Source: a virus. Taken from it: DNA of 22,574 bases. A program made the position numbers and the translations under genes. Below the pieces are notes generated by a model. It was given only the letters and a program-made list of their open reading frames with translations, was not told where the DNA came from and did no database searches. The DNA lies in the IMG/VR virus record IMGVR_UViG_3300030116_000757, positions 6,876 through 29,449 of that record; one strand, 5' to 3'. Below are positions 2 to 10,046 of the stretch, one piece after another (position 1 is the stretch's first letter; the number at the start of each line of letters is the position of its first letter).

Positions 2-187
2 GGTGCAGTTAATTTTGAATGGATAACACCAAACTTAACAAGCAAACCACAGTGGGAGATCGTGAGCGAAGGAGATGCCTTTTCTCTAACGGAAAACTTT
101 ATGGCTCCTGGTTTAGACGCAGTAAGCATAATAAATCGAACACAAACAATAGAAACAACACAAACTTCTACAACCTTGTTTCAATAG
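2..187 (+). CDS. C-terminal end of an unrecognised protein (5' partial)
   Basis: An uninterrupted reading frame enters from the left edge and ends at TAG (185-187), giving 61 residues beginning GAVNFEWITPNLTSKPQWEI and ending in a Thr/Ser/Gln-rich tail. The composition (aromatics spaced along a beta-like chain, then a T/Q-rich end) looks like true coding sequence and not an overlapping shadow. It shares about 170 bases with the frame of the next gene, one frame apart, so part of one of the two frames may not be translated as drawn. No domain is recognised from this fragment. It lies on the plus strand, opposite to the structural operon, and probably belongs with the following secreted-type protein in a small rightward transcript. 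The partial status limits confidence. Confidence 0.6.
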   Translation, partial: GAVNFEWITPNLTSKPQWEIVSEGDAFSLTENFMAPGLDAVSIINRTQTIETTQTSTTLFQ

Positions 188-786
188 GACTTTTATTTGC
201 TAGTCCTGTTTATGCCGAGACAACTATAAGTAACCCCCAATCGAGTACTCAATCGACAATAGTTAACCAAGGATTTCAATCCATAAGCGGATCTTTCCCA
301 ACTCATAGATATAGCAACGGTATTCAATGCCAAACACCTACTCTTAGTTTCAATCCCTTCATAACAAAAGGAGAATACTACAACACTCCTAGAAGCACCA
401 TACAAAGAACAAATATTTATAACCAAGCAAAAGATAGCGAAACTGGTCAGCTTACAAACCCTGGTGAAATACTTTACATAGCAGAACAGGAAAGATTAGA
501 TCAGATAAACCATAATTTTTCATATGGAGCGACTATTAGTATTCAAGTTCCATTAGGAAAAAGATTTAATGATGAGTGCATAAAAGCAGCCCAAACTTAT
601 AGGAAATATCAGGAGTTTCTACTTGATGCAAAGCGTTTAGAGGTTAATCTTAATCGTGCGAAGCTATGTAGTACAATGTTGCAAAATGGAATAAAATTTG
701 TAGGTGAAGATGCAGTTTCTTGTCGCAATATTGTTTTAACTACGATTCCAAATCAAGTTATCCCACATACTCACAAATTAAAATAG
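19..786 (+). CDS. Secreted-type protein with signal peptide, function unknown
   Basis: A 255-residue frame. Residues about 50-66 form a hydrophobic signal-peptide core ending in an AxA-like site (SPVYA before ETT), preceded by a Lys/Arg/Asn-rich stretch, so the mature protein of about 190 residues should be exported or membrane-associated. The mature part has four cysteines (in NGIQCQT, DECIKAA, KLCSTM and VSCRN), a Gly-rich region, and an alpha-helical C-terminal third rich in Lys and Glu. The start is doubtful: ATG 19 and GTG 52 are the only ordinary in-frame starts before the signal core, and both lie inside the upstream gene that ends at 187, giving an unusually long n-region of 38-49 residues. 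No clear ribosome binding site precedes either. I do not recognise the family. The stop codon lies inside the first arm of a terminator-like hairpin, and the gene converges on the minus-strand operon. Confidence 0.7.
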   Translation: MDNTKLNKQTTVGDRERRRCLFSNGKLYGSWFRRSKHNKSNTNNRNNTNFYNLVSIGLLFASPVYAETTISNPQSSTQSTIVNQGFQSISGSFPTHRYSNGIQCQTPTLSFNPFITKGEYYNTPRSTIQRTNIYNQAKDSETGQLTNPGEILYIAEQERLDQINHNFSYGATISIQVPLGKRFNDECIKAAQTYRKYQEFLLDAKRLEVNLNRAKLCSTMLQNGIKFVGEDAVSCRNIVLTTIPNQVIPHTHKLK

Positions 787-812
787 ACAAGCTACGGGTA
801 TTTACTTGTCTA
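784..812 (-). terminator. Terminator-like hairpin at the convergent junction
   Basis: An uninterrupted 8-bp stem (TAGACAAG 784-791, CTTGTCTA 805-812) closes a 13-base loop. Read on the minus strand it is followed by TTTTAATTT, a fair U-rich tail, which would end the leftward structural transcript. On the plus strand the following bases are AAATAAG, so it would work poorly in that direction as an intrinsic terminator. The loop is large and the stem AT-containing, so strength is uncertain. Confidence 0.5.
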
Positions 813-816
813 AATA

Positions 817-894
817 AGCAACTGCCGAGAAAGTAACCACTACAAGTATTACTCAACCTCTTTTCATCTGGGTACCAAACCAGAGACAGGTGCT
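817..894 (-). ncRNA. Candidate structured RNA, three-way junction, copy A
   Basis: Outer stem: AGCA 817-820 with TGCT 891-894, one mismatch, then CTG 822-824 with CAG 887-889. Inside are two hairpins: AGTAA 832-836 with TTACT 849-853, and TCTGG 867-871 with CCAGA 880-884. Strand is uncertain because all pairs are Watson-Crick; minus is preferred because a U-tailed hairpin follows on that strand, which would place the element in the 3' end of the leftward transcript. I do not recognise a known riboswitch, ribozyme or tRNA core in it. Confidence 0.45.
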
Positions 895-898
895 AAAT

Positions 899-967
899 AA
901 GCAACTGGCGACTAGGCTTAAATCCTAACGTCTTCTCATTATGGAGCGACCCATAAGACAGATGCTT
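899..967 (-). ncRNA. Candidate structured RNA, three-way junction, copy B
   Basis: It has the same plan as copy A with different bases. Outer stem: AAGCA 899-903 with TGCTT 963-967, one A/A mismatch, then CTG 905-907 with CAG 959-961. Inner hairpins: TAGG 913-916 with CCTA 924-927, and TTATGG 939-944 with CCATAA 951-956. Both inner stems differ in sequence from copy A yet still pair, which is what selection on structure would leave. It begins 5 bases after the stop codon of the adjacent minus-strand gene on the transcript. Confidence 0.45.
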
Positions 968-971
968 AATA

Positions 972-1625
972 TCATTCTACATCTTTTTTCTTCTTTGTAA
1001 GCTTTTTTATAATATTTTTTACTAAGGGTTTAACAAGTTGAAGAATCGCAGGTGTAGTTGCTGCCACACTTGCTATTAAAGCTGTTGATACCACAACAGA
1101 AGACGTAGGTATATATTGGTCAACAAACGGTACTTCTTCCCAGATTGCATCACAGGAACCCTCCAATAGCCCACGCTCCCATTTTACCAAACGCTCAATG
1201 CGAAGCTCATTACGCCAATCCCCAGGTCTATATGGTGCGTTTTTAGGTGGGCAGGGTACTAACTCGATCTCTTCCTCCTCTTCTTTCTGTCCTAAATTAA
1301 TATTTACTCCACTTGCTTTTGGTTGAAAATTATATGTACCTTCTGTTTCTATAGTGTCTTGTGCATCATAAACAATAGGTCTAAATGTTTTAGCTTCTGG
1401 TTGTACTTTGATTGGTTGTGTGCCAGCGATTGCCTGACCATTGGGACAAGTGGCATAAGCCTTTCTGCCATGAAAAATTATAGTTGGGTTTTCTGATAGT
1501 TCTATGTCTCTATTAGTTAAATCACACGCAGGGTTTTCGCCTACCAATACAGTTTCAGGTACATATGGCGTTTCTGGTATATTTATTTTTGGTATTTTTA
1601 TCTCAGGTATTTTAATCGTAGGCAT
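972..1625 (-). CDS. Tail-anchored membrane protein, function unknown
   Basis: 217 residues. The N-terminus is a short-period Ile/Pro/Lys repeat (MPTIKIPEIKIPKINIPETP), followed by a domain with two cysteines (NPACDLT and ATCPNGQ), an acidic run (EEEEEIE) and a segment with two more Cys (VPCPPKN, EGSCDAIW). Residues about 174-200 are hydrophobic (SSVVVSTALIASVAATTPAI) and are followed by a lysine-rich tail, as in a C-terminal membrane anchor with the bulk of the protein on the other face. The start overlaps the previous stop as TAATG, implying translational coupling. It is the last gene of the leftward transcript before the repeat elements. No family is recognised. Placement next to two more small membrane proteins could fit a lysis or host-surface cassette, but nothing diagnostic (holin, endolysin or spanin lipobox) is visible. 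Confidence 0.8.
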   Translation of the reverse strand: MPTIKIPEIKIPKINIPETPYVPETVLVGENPACDLTNRDIELSENPTIIFHGRKAYATCPNGQAIAGTQPIKVQPEAKTFRPIVYDAQDTIETEGTYNFQPKASGVNINLGQKEEEEEIELVPCPPKNAPYRPGDWRNELRIERLVKWERGLLEGSCDAIWEEVPFVDQYIPTSSVVVSTALIASVAATTPAILQLVKPLVKNIIKKLTKKKKDVE

Positions 1626-7529: not shown

Positions 7530-10046
7530 TTAAACAAACGTCATGGTAGAGCTTGCACTTACTGTAAGGGTAGCACCAGAAGCAATAGTCATAGGACTAG
7601 CTGCAACATAGTTAAAATTCGCTGTTGTAGTAAAGCTGTTATCCATTTGGTTCTCTGCCTCAACAAATAATTTTTCGTTTGAACTGCCAACTAAACCTCC
7701 AGAAAGGCCAGTTAAGTTTGAACCATCTATTGCAGGTAAAGTACCAGTAATATTAGCTGCTGGTATTGATGTTAAGTTTGCTGCCGAAGCTTGTGGTAAT
7801 GTAGCAGGGAATCTAGCATCTGGTATTGTTCCAGAACTTAAATTAGTTGCGTTTAAAGCGGAACCGTCAATATATCCAGCACCGTTAGTAATTGCATTAT
7901 TGTTAAGAGAAATATTTGCTGAACCGTCAAAAGCAACTCCAGCTATATTTCTTGCTGTTGTTAATGTTGCTGCTGATCCTGTTGTATTTTGGTTTCCAGC
8001 AGTATTAACACCAGGTAAATCTATATTTGCCGATCCATCAAAACTAACACCGCCGATATTACGAGCATTTGCAAGTGTAGCTGCGGTTGTAGCTGCAATA
8101 CCTAGAGCATCTATGTCAGATTTTGTTTGATCTGCTGTAGCTCCAGTTTCGATACCATTTAGTTTTGTATGGTCAGCATCAGTAAATACATTACTATCAG
8201 TAGCACTTTCTACTAAAGTTCTAATCTCTGCTGCGGTTTGATCGGCTGTTGCTGATGCCTCAATACCTGATAATTTTGTTTGCTCTGCATCCGTAAAAGC
8301 ATTTGTATTGCTATTACTTTCGTATGCTGTTTTTATTTCAGTAGCAGTCTGATCCGCAGTAGCACCACTTTCTATTGCATTAAGTTTTGTATGGTCAGCA
8401 TCTGTAAAAGTATTAGAATCTGAAGCTGCCTCTACTGCTGCTGCTATCTGTGCAGCAGTTATAGCTCCTGTATTACCATTAACAGATAAAACCTGGTCTG
8501 TAGGTGTCAATAACTCTGTGAAATCTGCCATTGTGCCAGCAGTTCCACTGTTTCTCACATAAGACTTATTCTGATCTGATCTAACAACAATATCTCCTTC
8601 TTGGGTCGTAAGAGCTAAATGTGCAGATTGATTTGCTGCTGTCTGTACAGTAGTAAGTGCTATTTGATCGACATTAAAAGTAGTACCAGATAAACTCAAA
8701 CCTGTTCCAGCAGTGTATGTTGTGTCACTACTATTAGCAAGAACATAAGCTTTTACCGATTGTTGTGTTGGTACTTTAGTATCGCTGTCAGATGCCATGT
8801 TATCTTCATCAATAACAAAGCTCATTGCAGCAGTTGTAGTATCAGTATTCATCACCGCACCAGCAGCGTCTACATTAGTTGCATCTGTAACATCTGCACT
8901 AGCTTCTATTGCAGTAAGTTTTGATTTCTCAGCATCTGTAAAAGCATTAGTGTCAGAATTATTTTCATAAGCTGTTTTTATTTCCGCATCTGTTTGGTCA
9001 GCAGTAGCAGATGCTTCAATTCCATTTAACTTTGTATGATCTGCGTCAGTGAATACATTGGAATCTGTAGCCGCCTCTACAAGAGTTCTTATTTCACTAG
9101 CTGTCTGATCTGCGGTAGCACTAGCCTCTATGCCTGTTAATTTAGTTTTTTCAGCGTCAGTAAAGGCATTAGTGTTTGCATTTGCTTCATATGCTGTCTT
9201 AATCTCTGCGTCAGTTTGATCTGCGGTGGCATTACTCTCTATTCCATCTAATTTTGTTTTATCTGCTGAACTCATTGAACCAGCAGCAGATGTTGTAGCT
9301 GCTGAAATACTGATAGCTGGAGTTGCACCACCAGAAGAAACTATAGGAGTTGTGCCTGTAACTGAAGTAACACCACCAGCAGAACCAGACGCTGCGGCTG
9401 TAATCCTTCCCTGTGCATCAACTGTAATATTTGTATTTGTATAACTACCAGCAGTAACAGAAGTATCAGCTAATTTAGCAGCAGTAACAACATCATTATC
9501 TATAGTAAAAGTAGCACCAGAATTACTAACAACAATATCTCCCTTATCTCCATCACTGATCGCTCCGTCGGCTCCGTCATTCCCTGGTATCCCTTGAATT
9601 CCTTGTATTCCTTGAATTCCTTGTATTCCTTGTATTCCTTGATCGCCTTTAGGAATTGTAAAATCAAAAGTAGCAGCAGTAGATGATCCAGAATTAGTAA
9701 CACTAGCCGAAGATCCAGCAGCACCTGTAGTCACTGTTCCAATAGCTATAGTTGCAGCAGCACCATCACTGCCATCACTTCCAGCAACACCCTGTATACC
9801 TTGACTGCCAGTATTTCCAGTATTTCCGGTATCCCCTTTTGGAATTGTAAAGTTTAAAATTGCTGCTGTTGTAGTTCCAACATTTGTAACTGAAGCATTT
9901 GTACCAGCGTTTCCTGTTGTTACTGTACCTATAGTAACTGTTGCAGAACCCTCGCCTTGTTCACCCTGCTGTCCAGCTACACCTGGTATACCCTGTACTC
10001 CTTGAGTAACAATTTCAACAATGGCAATAGGATTAGATGAACTCAT
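7530..10046 (-). CDS. Long collagen-like, repeat-rich tail fibre
   Basis: 838 residues; the start overlaps the previous stop as ATGA. Order of modules: a short N-terminal segment; Gly-X-Y collagen stretches (about 16-33, 70-95, 133-162); between them two copies of a 35-residue unit (IGTVTTG ... FTIPKG, about 38-71 and 101-134); then alternating ~37-residue repeats (about 261-384 and 537-643) of two types, EIKTAYEAN.NTNAFTDAEKT and EIRTLVEAATDSNVFTDADHT, each joined by GIEASATADQT; a middle domain with VPTQQSVKAYV and an LSGTTFNV beta segment; paired ARNI.GV.FDGSANI repeats (660-715); and a C-terminal beta strand region. Everything indicates a long homotrimeric shaft. No chaperone domain is present, so trimerisation may rely on the collagen zipper or on the assembly chaperone-like protein encoded downstream. 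Confidence 0.85.
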   Translation of the reverse strand: MSSSNPIAIVEIVTQGVQGIPGVAGQQGEQGEGSATVTIGTVTTGNAGTNASVTNVGTTTAAILNFTIPKGDTGNTGNTGSQGIQGVAGSDGSDGAAATIAIGTVTTGAAGSSASVTNSGSSTAATFDFTIPKGDQGIQGIQGIQGIQGIQGIPGNDGADGAISDGDKGDIVVSNSGATFTIDNDVVTAAKLADTSVTAGSYTNTNITVDAQGRITAAASGSAGGVTSVTGTTPIVSSGGATPAISISAATTSAAGSMSSADKTKLDGIESNATADQTDAEIKTAYEANANTNAFTDAEKTKLTGIEASATADQTASEIRTLVEAATDSNVFTDADHTKLNGIEASATADQTDAEIKTAYENNSDTNAFTDAEKSKLTAIEASADVTDATNVDAAGAVMNTDTTTAAMSFVIDEDNMASDSDTKVPTQQSVKAYVLANSSDTTYTAGTGLSLSGTTFNVDQIALTTVQTAANQSAHLALTTQEGDIVVRSDQNKSYVRNSGTAGTMADFTELLTPTDQVLSVNGNTGAITAAQIAAAVEAASDSNTFTDADHTKLNAIESGATADQTATEIKTAYESNSNTNAFTDAEQTKLSGIEASATADQTAAEIRTLVESATDSNVFTDADHTKLNGIETGATADQTKSDIDALGIAATTAATLANARNIGGVSFDGSANIDLPGVNTAGNQNTTGSAATLTTARNIAGVAFDGSANISLNNNAITNGAGYIDGSALNATNLSSGTIPDARFPATLPQASAANLTSIPAANITGTLPAIDGSNLTGLSGGLVGSSNEKLFVEAENQMDNSFTTTANFNYVAASPMTIASGATLTVSASSTMTFV
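8118..8438 (-). repeat. Second block of ~111-base coding repeats in the long fibre
   Basis: Encodes residues about 537-643 of the 838-residue fibre: copies of the two alternating repeat types (TNAFTDAEQTKL and SNTFTDADHTKL / SNVFTDADHTKL) separated by ATADQT. The period is 37 codons. The alternation of the two types matches the first block, so the pair (74 codons) seems to be the duplicated unit. Confidence 0.8.
8895..9266 (-). repeat. First block of ~111-base coding repeats in the long fibre
   Basis: Encodes residues about 261-384: three and a half copies in the order AYE-type, LVE-type, AYE-type, linked by GIEASATADQT. Related repeats are widespread in phage fibres. The nucleotide copies have diverged at third positions, so the array is not a very recent expansion. 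Confidence 0.8.
9588..9641 (-). repeat. 9-base microsatellite, six units, in the collagen segment
   Basis: Six consecutive 9-base units of the form CAAGGAATA/T (the last CAAGGGATA) on the minus strand, encoding Gly-Ile-Gln repeats. Near-perfect identity between units makes slipped-strand gain or loss possible; every change would stay in frame and only change the length of the collagen shaft. Confidence 0.9.

Follow-up and report, generated by a model that had tools for sequence, protein, structure and literature searches.

Tandem three-way-junction elements in a cassette slot between two convergent operons of an uncultivated virus

Results

The locus and its flanking genes

The window, by which we mean the whole stretch of 22,574 nucleotides that was analysed, is part of a 35,332-base uncultivated virus record (G000); a short stretch of unknown bases lies immediately ahead of its start (G000:C1; L286, around 6870). 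Among named phages, those closest to it are the Prochlorococcus siphophages MED4-117, MED4-184 and P-HS2 (74% over 199 bases). A related 41-kb contig (L213), carrying the modules gamma, xi and B2 that are considered below, lies within the Prochlorococcus single-cell genome AG-418-M08, and for this reason Prochlorococcus is a likely host of the virus group.

The late (structural-gene) operon extends for ~28 kb on the minus strand. The head, tail and fibre genes are all on this strand in a series that closes with phrog_570, and inspection of the proteins indicates that the TerS, TerL and portal genes are likely members of the same operon. Within the window, the tail-fibre gene contains 111-base repeats and collagen-like Gly-X-Y repeats (8111-9302 and 9583-9641). 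The late operon terminates head-on against a plus strand operon of small, nuclease-like and secreted proteins, the last of which, phrog_848, is probably a secreted protein of cyanophages. Since one operon ends with phrog_570 and the other with phrog_848, the interval between them, hereafter the slot, is the shared 3' end of both. The features of this region are as follows.

19..786, + strand: phrog_848 gene, end of the + operon (PHROG E 7e-49; 410 phage records, nearly all from cyanophages)
784..812, - strand: type A hairpin, stem TAGACAAG/CTTGTCTA, then UAUUUUAAUUUG on the - strand (fold z -3.6)
787..971, no strand assigned: cassette slot between the two convergent stop codons, 185 nt in the window, empty to several hundred nt in relatives
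816..896, no strand assigned (read as - by position and U-tail): alpha1 three-way-junction element, copy 1 (covariance model R1, 85.9 bits; covariation)
899..968, no strand assigned (read as - by position and U-tail): alpha2 three-way-junction element, copy 2 (R1, 80.5 bits)
972..1625, - strand: phrog_570 gene, last gene of the late operon (PHROG E 3e-12; relatives)

The type A hairpin, which occurs in most relatives, overlaps the end of phrog_848 in such a way that the stop codon of this gene falls within the stem and its last codons supply a U-rich tail on the minus strand. Its loop has a conserved ACCCGU on the same strand. It has the sequence features of an intrinsic terminator (a stem of 8-9 pairs, -9.6 kcal/mol, z -3.6, and the minus strand tail UUUUAAUUUG); a stricter terminator rule with a loop of <=8 gave no match within the window. 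From these features we read it as a putative terminator or 3'-end hairpin of the late transcript.

Two tandem three-way junctions with covarying stems

A previous sequence-only reading had described, at 810-970, an ~83-base tandem repeat forming two three-way junctions. Both junctions are present with the stems that it named, at 816-896 and 899-968 and with starts 83 nt apart; the third element of the region, the hairpin at 784-812, had escaped it. The helices of alpha1 are P1 (817-824/887-894), P2a (827-829/858-860), P2b (832-836/849-853) and P3 (867-871/880-884), and those of alpha2 are P1 (900-907/959-966), P2a (910-912/930-932), P2b (913-916/924-927) and P3 (939-944/951-956). The two types are distinguished by the lower part of P2, which is GAG/CTC in alpha1 and GAC/GTC in alpha2, with one additional divergent copy in locus L050. 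The unpaired stretches TCTTYKCAT and GACAG are kept, and the 70 nt of alpha2 are identical in four other loci (L041, L074, L075, L100).

The folding energy of a single copy is unremarkable on either strand (z -1.2 to -1.7). Because single copies fold barely better than their shuffles, one genome is not convincing and relatives were needed to establish the fold. Nor are the energies of the modules in general very informative when compared with shuffles, the family means being z -1.3 on the plus strand and -1.6 on the minus strand. Loci were therefore gathered through the relatives of the phrog_570 protein, of the phrog_848 protein and of the alpha element itself, with the module families delimited by hand-written patterns; chance matches in unrelated DNA were excluded (L080, L082 and L091 from the first pattern; L097 and about half of the loci found with the alpha1-core pattern). 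The sequence-only reading had predicted that further copies with preserved pairing should exist. The covariance model R1 found 39 copies, including the two of the window, and a sequence pattern added three more (L272, L276, L279), which makes 42 in total for the window and the viral contigs related to it. Among the loci fetched, about 1.3 Mb in all, no alpha copy lay outside the gap between phrog_848 (+) and phrog_570 (-). A search with R1 of 201 genomes of the host family returned no match, which is a weak negative, an empty answer from such a search having little weight.

The pairing is maintained by two-sided changes. In the alignment of 23 copies (A1), 96.2% of the cells are paired and double changes occur in 10 of the 21 pairs; there are 71 double-change cells, compared with 29.5 +/- 3.9 after column shuffles and <=11 when the partners are slid. 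RNAalifold predicted the junction from this alignment, with double changes in 9 of 18 pairs. A re-alignment of 31 model matches (A3) agrees with the result from A1; the helix pairs have 95.7% of cells paired and 85 double-change cells, versus 34 shuffled and <=10 slid. Many of these double changes distinguish the paralogous types alpha1 and alpha2 and are consequently not independent of one another, but several occur within a type: T-A/C-G and A-T/G-C in P3, and G-C/A-T and C-G/T-A in P1. The two tandem three-way junctions are thus confirmed, and the compensatory pairing that had been proposed from one genome is borne out by its relatives.

The slot as a cassette site

Comparison of relatives revealed a property that the sequence-only reading had missed, namely that the slot is a site of exchangeable cassettes. 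Among the 168 loci that have both flanking genes, its size ranges from overlapping stop codons to several hundred bases, and is rarely larger. It is empty or overlapped in 33 of the 168 (in L187 and L190 the sequence runs ...AAATTAAAATAATTATTT, with the two stops abutting), and its modules are accordingly dispensable. Filled slots contain the hairpin A, or a pair of hairpins, or between one and four modules from a set of about 16 different folds. By signature patterns, which make the counts approximate, 133 distinct slots contain A in 71 cases, B2 in 30, alpha in 22, the X type in 14, gamma in 8, and about a dozen rarer folds; 27 of these slots have one complex module, 10 have two, 5 have three and 2 have four.

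The contents of the slot can be common to phages whose flanking proteins are 31-40% identical. The window and L099 have 92% of 187 slot bases in common, with amino-acid identities of 33% for phrog_848 and 38% for phrog_570; for the window and L074 the corresponding values are 95% of 86 slot bases, 31% and 39%. Exchange is a more likely cause of this than extreme constraint, since the combinations of modules differ between phages.

Such exchange among divergent phages, with its swapped modules and its empty and filled sites, would also be expected if the elements acted as DNA, as small mobile inverted-repeat cassettes or recombination sites at a hotspot, the pairing then serving to form DNA hairpins; the palindromic ends (AATAAG...CTTA) are compatible with this. 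We nonetheless judge it very improbable: alpha is confined to the slot throughout the loci fetched (~1.3 Mb), no gene adjoining the slot was identified as a recombinase, and the strong one-sided G-U bias presented below points to selection on the RNA of one strand for several modules. A dispersed mobile inverted-repeat element of the MITE or REP kind was rejected on the same distribution, as it should occupy several genomic sites.

In the isolate P-HS2 the slot has 128 bases and no significant fold, so that the elements of interest may be lacking from the isolates available. The cyanomyoviruses examined have the convergent phrog_848/phrog_570 pair; their genes overlap, and there is no slot. 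In P-SSM2, SynMITS9220M01, S-PRM1 and S-ShM2 (L127-L130) this is the T4-GC 235/234 pair, whose frames overlap by 86-218 bases.

The strand on which the modules act

Where one strand has a G-U pair the other has C-A, and this provides a test of the strand on which a fold has been selected. In 20 distinct stems of the A hairpin there are 11 G-U cells on the minus strand and 1 on the plus strand; for gamma, X2, kappa, xi and B2, with the count restricted to pairs predicted on both strands, the G-U types number 13 on the minus strand and none on the plus strand. The minus strand is thus well supported as the strand of the RNA for these neighbouring modules (A, gamma, X2, kappa, xi, B2), a claim that does not extend to alpha. 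The shared pairs of alpha have 1 G-U type on the minus strand and 2 on the plus strand, and its base-pair probabilities are similar on both. The sequence-only reading had taken the folds to be on the plus strand; alpha itself has no clear bias.

We therefore considered whether the elements act on the plus strand, where they would be a terminator or 3' UTR for the operon that ends in phrog_848, or whether the slot serves both operons, with alpha on the plus strand and A on the minus strand. Alpha does fold more consistently on the plus strand, its consensus energy being -12.5 kcal/mol there and -7.8 on the minus strand, where the alpha2 junction is often not the preferred fold; four alpha copies have a U-G pair on the plus strand in P1, and the T-tail of the B2 hairpin is directed to that strand. 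The rare modules mu, eta and Xlong also fold slightly better on it. We nevertheless regard this explanation as unlikely, because the G-U pairs of the other modules favor the minus strand, the U-tails that follow alpha are on the minus strand, and terminator-like signals on the plus strand exceed their background by a factor of just 1.6.

These signals were scored by a simple rule, under which a hairpin followed by U's is present on the minus strand of 80 of 105 unique slots, compared with 11.6% of matched windows, and on the plus strand of 29 of 105, compared with 17.4%. The 8 nt past the closing stem contain a mean of 4.2 T on the minus strand and 2.8 on the plus strand in 61 distinct module occurrences, and 4.6 and 2.4, respectively, for alpha. 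In the equivalent slot of four sister phages (L272, L076, L010, L036) there are textbook minus strand terminators, with a stem and a U-run.

Discussion

A proposed role as exchangeable 3' ends of a late transcript

Cyanobacteria lack Rho, and in Synechococcus elongatus canonical terminators account for only a minority of the mapped ends (PMC13289151). With Rho absent and few canonical ends, special transcript-end elements are plausible in such hosts. We propose that the RNA modules in the slot are exchangeable terminators or 3'-end elements, by which the late mRNA acquires its 3' end and is protected there, a proposal on which our own judgement is evenly divided. Transcription of the late operon would proceed past the phrog_570 stop codon into the slot, where the RNA would fold alpha2, then alpha1 and finally the A hairpin. 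The U-rich stretch after each closing stem resembles that of an intrinsic terminator, and a row of modules might thus serve as serial terminators and 3' caps in a host group without Rho, alpha working on the same strand as its neighbours. That one closing stem could stand in for another at this site would explain the exchange of modules between phages as cassettes. Host RNase E is known to be induced by a cyanophage (PMC9692554).

This interpretation agrees best with one of the three guesses of the sequence-only reading, namely a structured RNA at the 3' end of the late transcript: the late operon finishes in the slot, and the G-U pairs and U-tails of the neighbours are on the strand of that operon, although alpha's own strand is without clear bias. 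Its guess of a processed small RNA is less probable and is taken up below. A packaging site, the remaining guess, is unlikely, since some 25 kb separate the slot from the likely terminase genes at the opposite end of the operon and many relatives have an empty slot.

Several observations speak against terminators. Unpaired bases need not be conserved in a plain terminator, yet they are kept in alpha and in the A loop. The G-U counts and consensus energy of alpha give no minus strand bias, the modules are dispensable and the P-HS2 slot has no significant fold. As an alternative, cleavage of the late transcript might release the modules as nuclease-resistant 3' fragments or stable small RNAs that have a separate function, for example as decoys or in binding a host or phage protein; the conserved loops and unpaired bases speak for this. 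The occurrence of many unrelated folds at a single site, where up to four stand in a row, and of modules common to phages with 31-40% identical flanking proteins suits this view, as does the analogy of the tandem junction folds of flavivirus 3' UTRs. On the other hand, the modules are always at the end of the operon, which is expected of a terminator and unnecessary for a free RNA, and their U-tails would be left unexplained; we hold this alternative only tentatively and think it somewhat improbable. Were it true, the changing repertoire would reflect an arms race or host specificity and not a set of interchangeable terminators. We are more doubtful still of a further possibility, namely that the late operon has at its 3' end a hypervariable RNA cassette site where at least 16 small folded RNAs are combined, between one and four to a row, and every one of them has a separate partner or target, which might be a host nuclease, an RNA polymerase factor or a defence system. 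Cyanophages would then trade RNA modules as others trade genes.

How cyanobacteria without Rho end and protect their transcripts is an open question (PMC13289151). Phages that end a 28-kb late operon head-on against another operon may have gathered several solutions to it, and the slot would then be a natural library of transcript-end solutions, with the empty slots as controls. Should the modules prove to have separate partners, they would make up an exchangeable RNA repertoire of a new kind among the viruses of the ocean.

Comparison with known systems

The alpha family is absent from Rfam, the RNA library searched, and no other slot module matched it. At the curated cut-offs there were no matches in the window and 15 related loci, and at E 0.5 twelve further loci gave two matches, each under the cut-off of its own family. 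ARAGORN found no tRNA or tmRNA in the window or in 17 loci. The core bases of a hammerhead are missing on either strand, and a pseudoknot of alpha has no obvious loop partner (both by inspection).

The nearest known kind is the intrinsic terminator, the sequence features of which are found in the A hairpin and only in part in alpha. Intrinsic terminators, including the tandem and bidirectional ones of phages, resemble the slot in their position between convergent operons, their closing stem with a U-rich minus strand tail and the excess of signals. The slot modules differ from them in that they include three-way junctions whose unpaired bases are conserved, that unrelated folds stand together in rows and that exchange is cassette-like, and the tails of alpha are often short and broken by A.

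Tandem three-way junctions that vary between relatives are also found in the viral 3' UTR of flaviviruses, as xrRNAs and the subgenomic 3' UTR RNAs. The likeness is one of layout only, the slot belonging to a DNA phage of a cyanobacterium, with other enzymes. In bacteria, the L17 downstream element and other 3' UTR motifs are covarying RNAs downstream of genes, a position considered "highly unusual" (Weinberg et al. 2010, PMC2864571); the slot has both properties in common with the L17 downstream element, but the genes and organisms differ. Three structured RNA motifs of marine cyanophages, manA, wcaG and PhotoRC-II, come from the same source (PMC2864571), in which manA and wcaG are regulatory elements tied to metabolic genes, manA being in 5' UTRs. 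Like the slot elements they are structured RNAs of marine cyanophages, but none of them matches the slot.

Larger slot contents

In four loci (L053, L068, L069, L184) there is a long X-type module of about 145-180 nt, the ends of which match the 62-nt X module and the middle of which is large and conserved; it is possibly a larger structured RNA. In the slot of L103, one arm of the epsilon module is interrupted by an insertion of roughly 150 bases, as if another element had landed there. The slots of L157, L188, L070, L105 and L108 have about 700 to 2,800 extra bases which apparently include additional genes, so that the slot also takes ordinary gene cargo.
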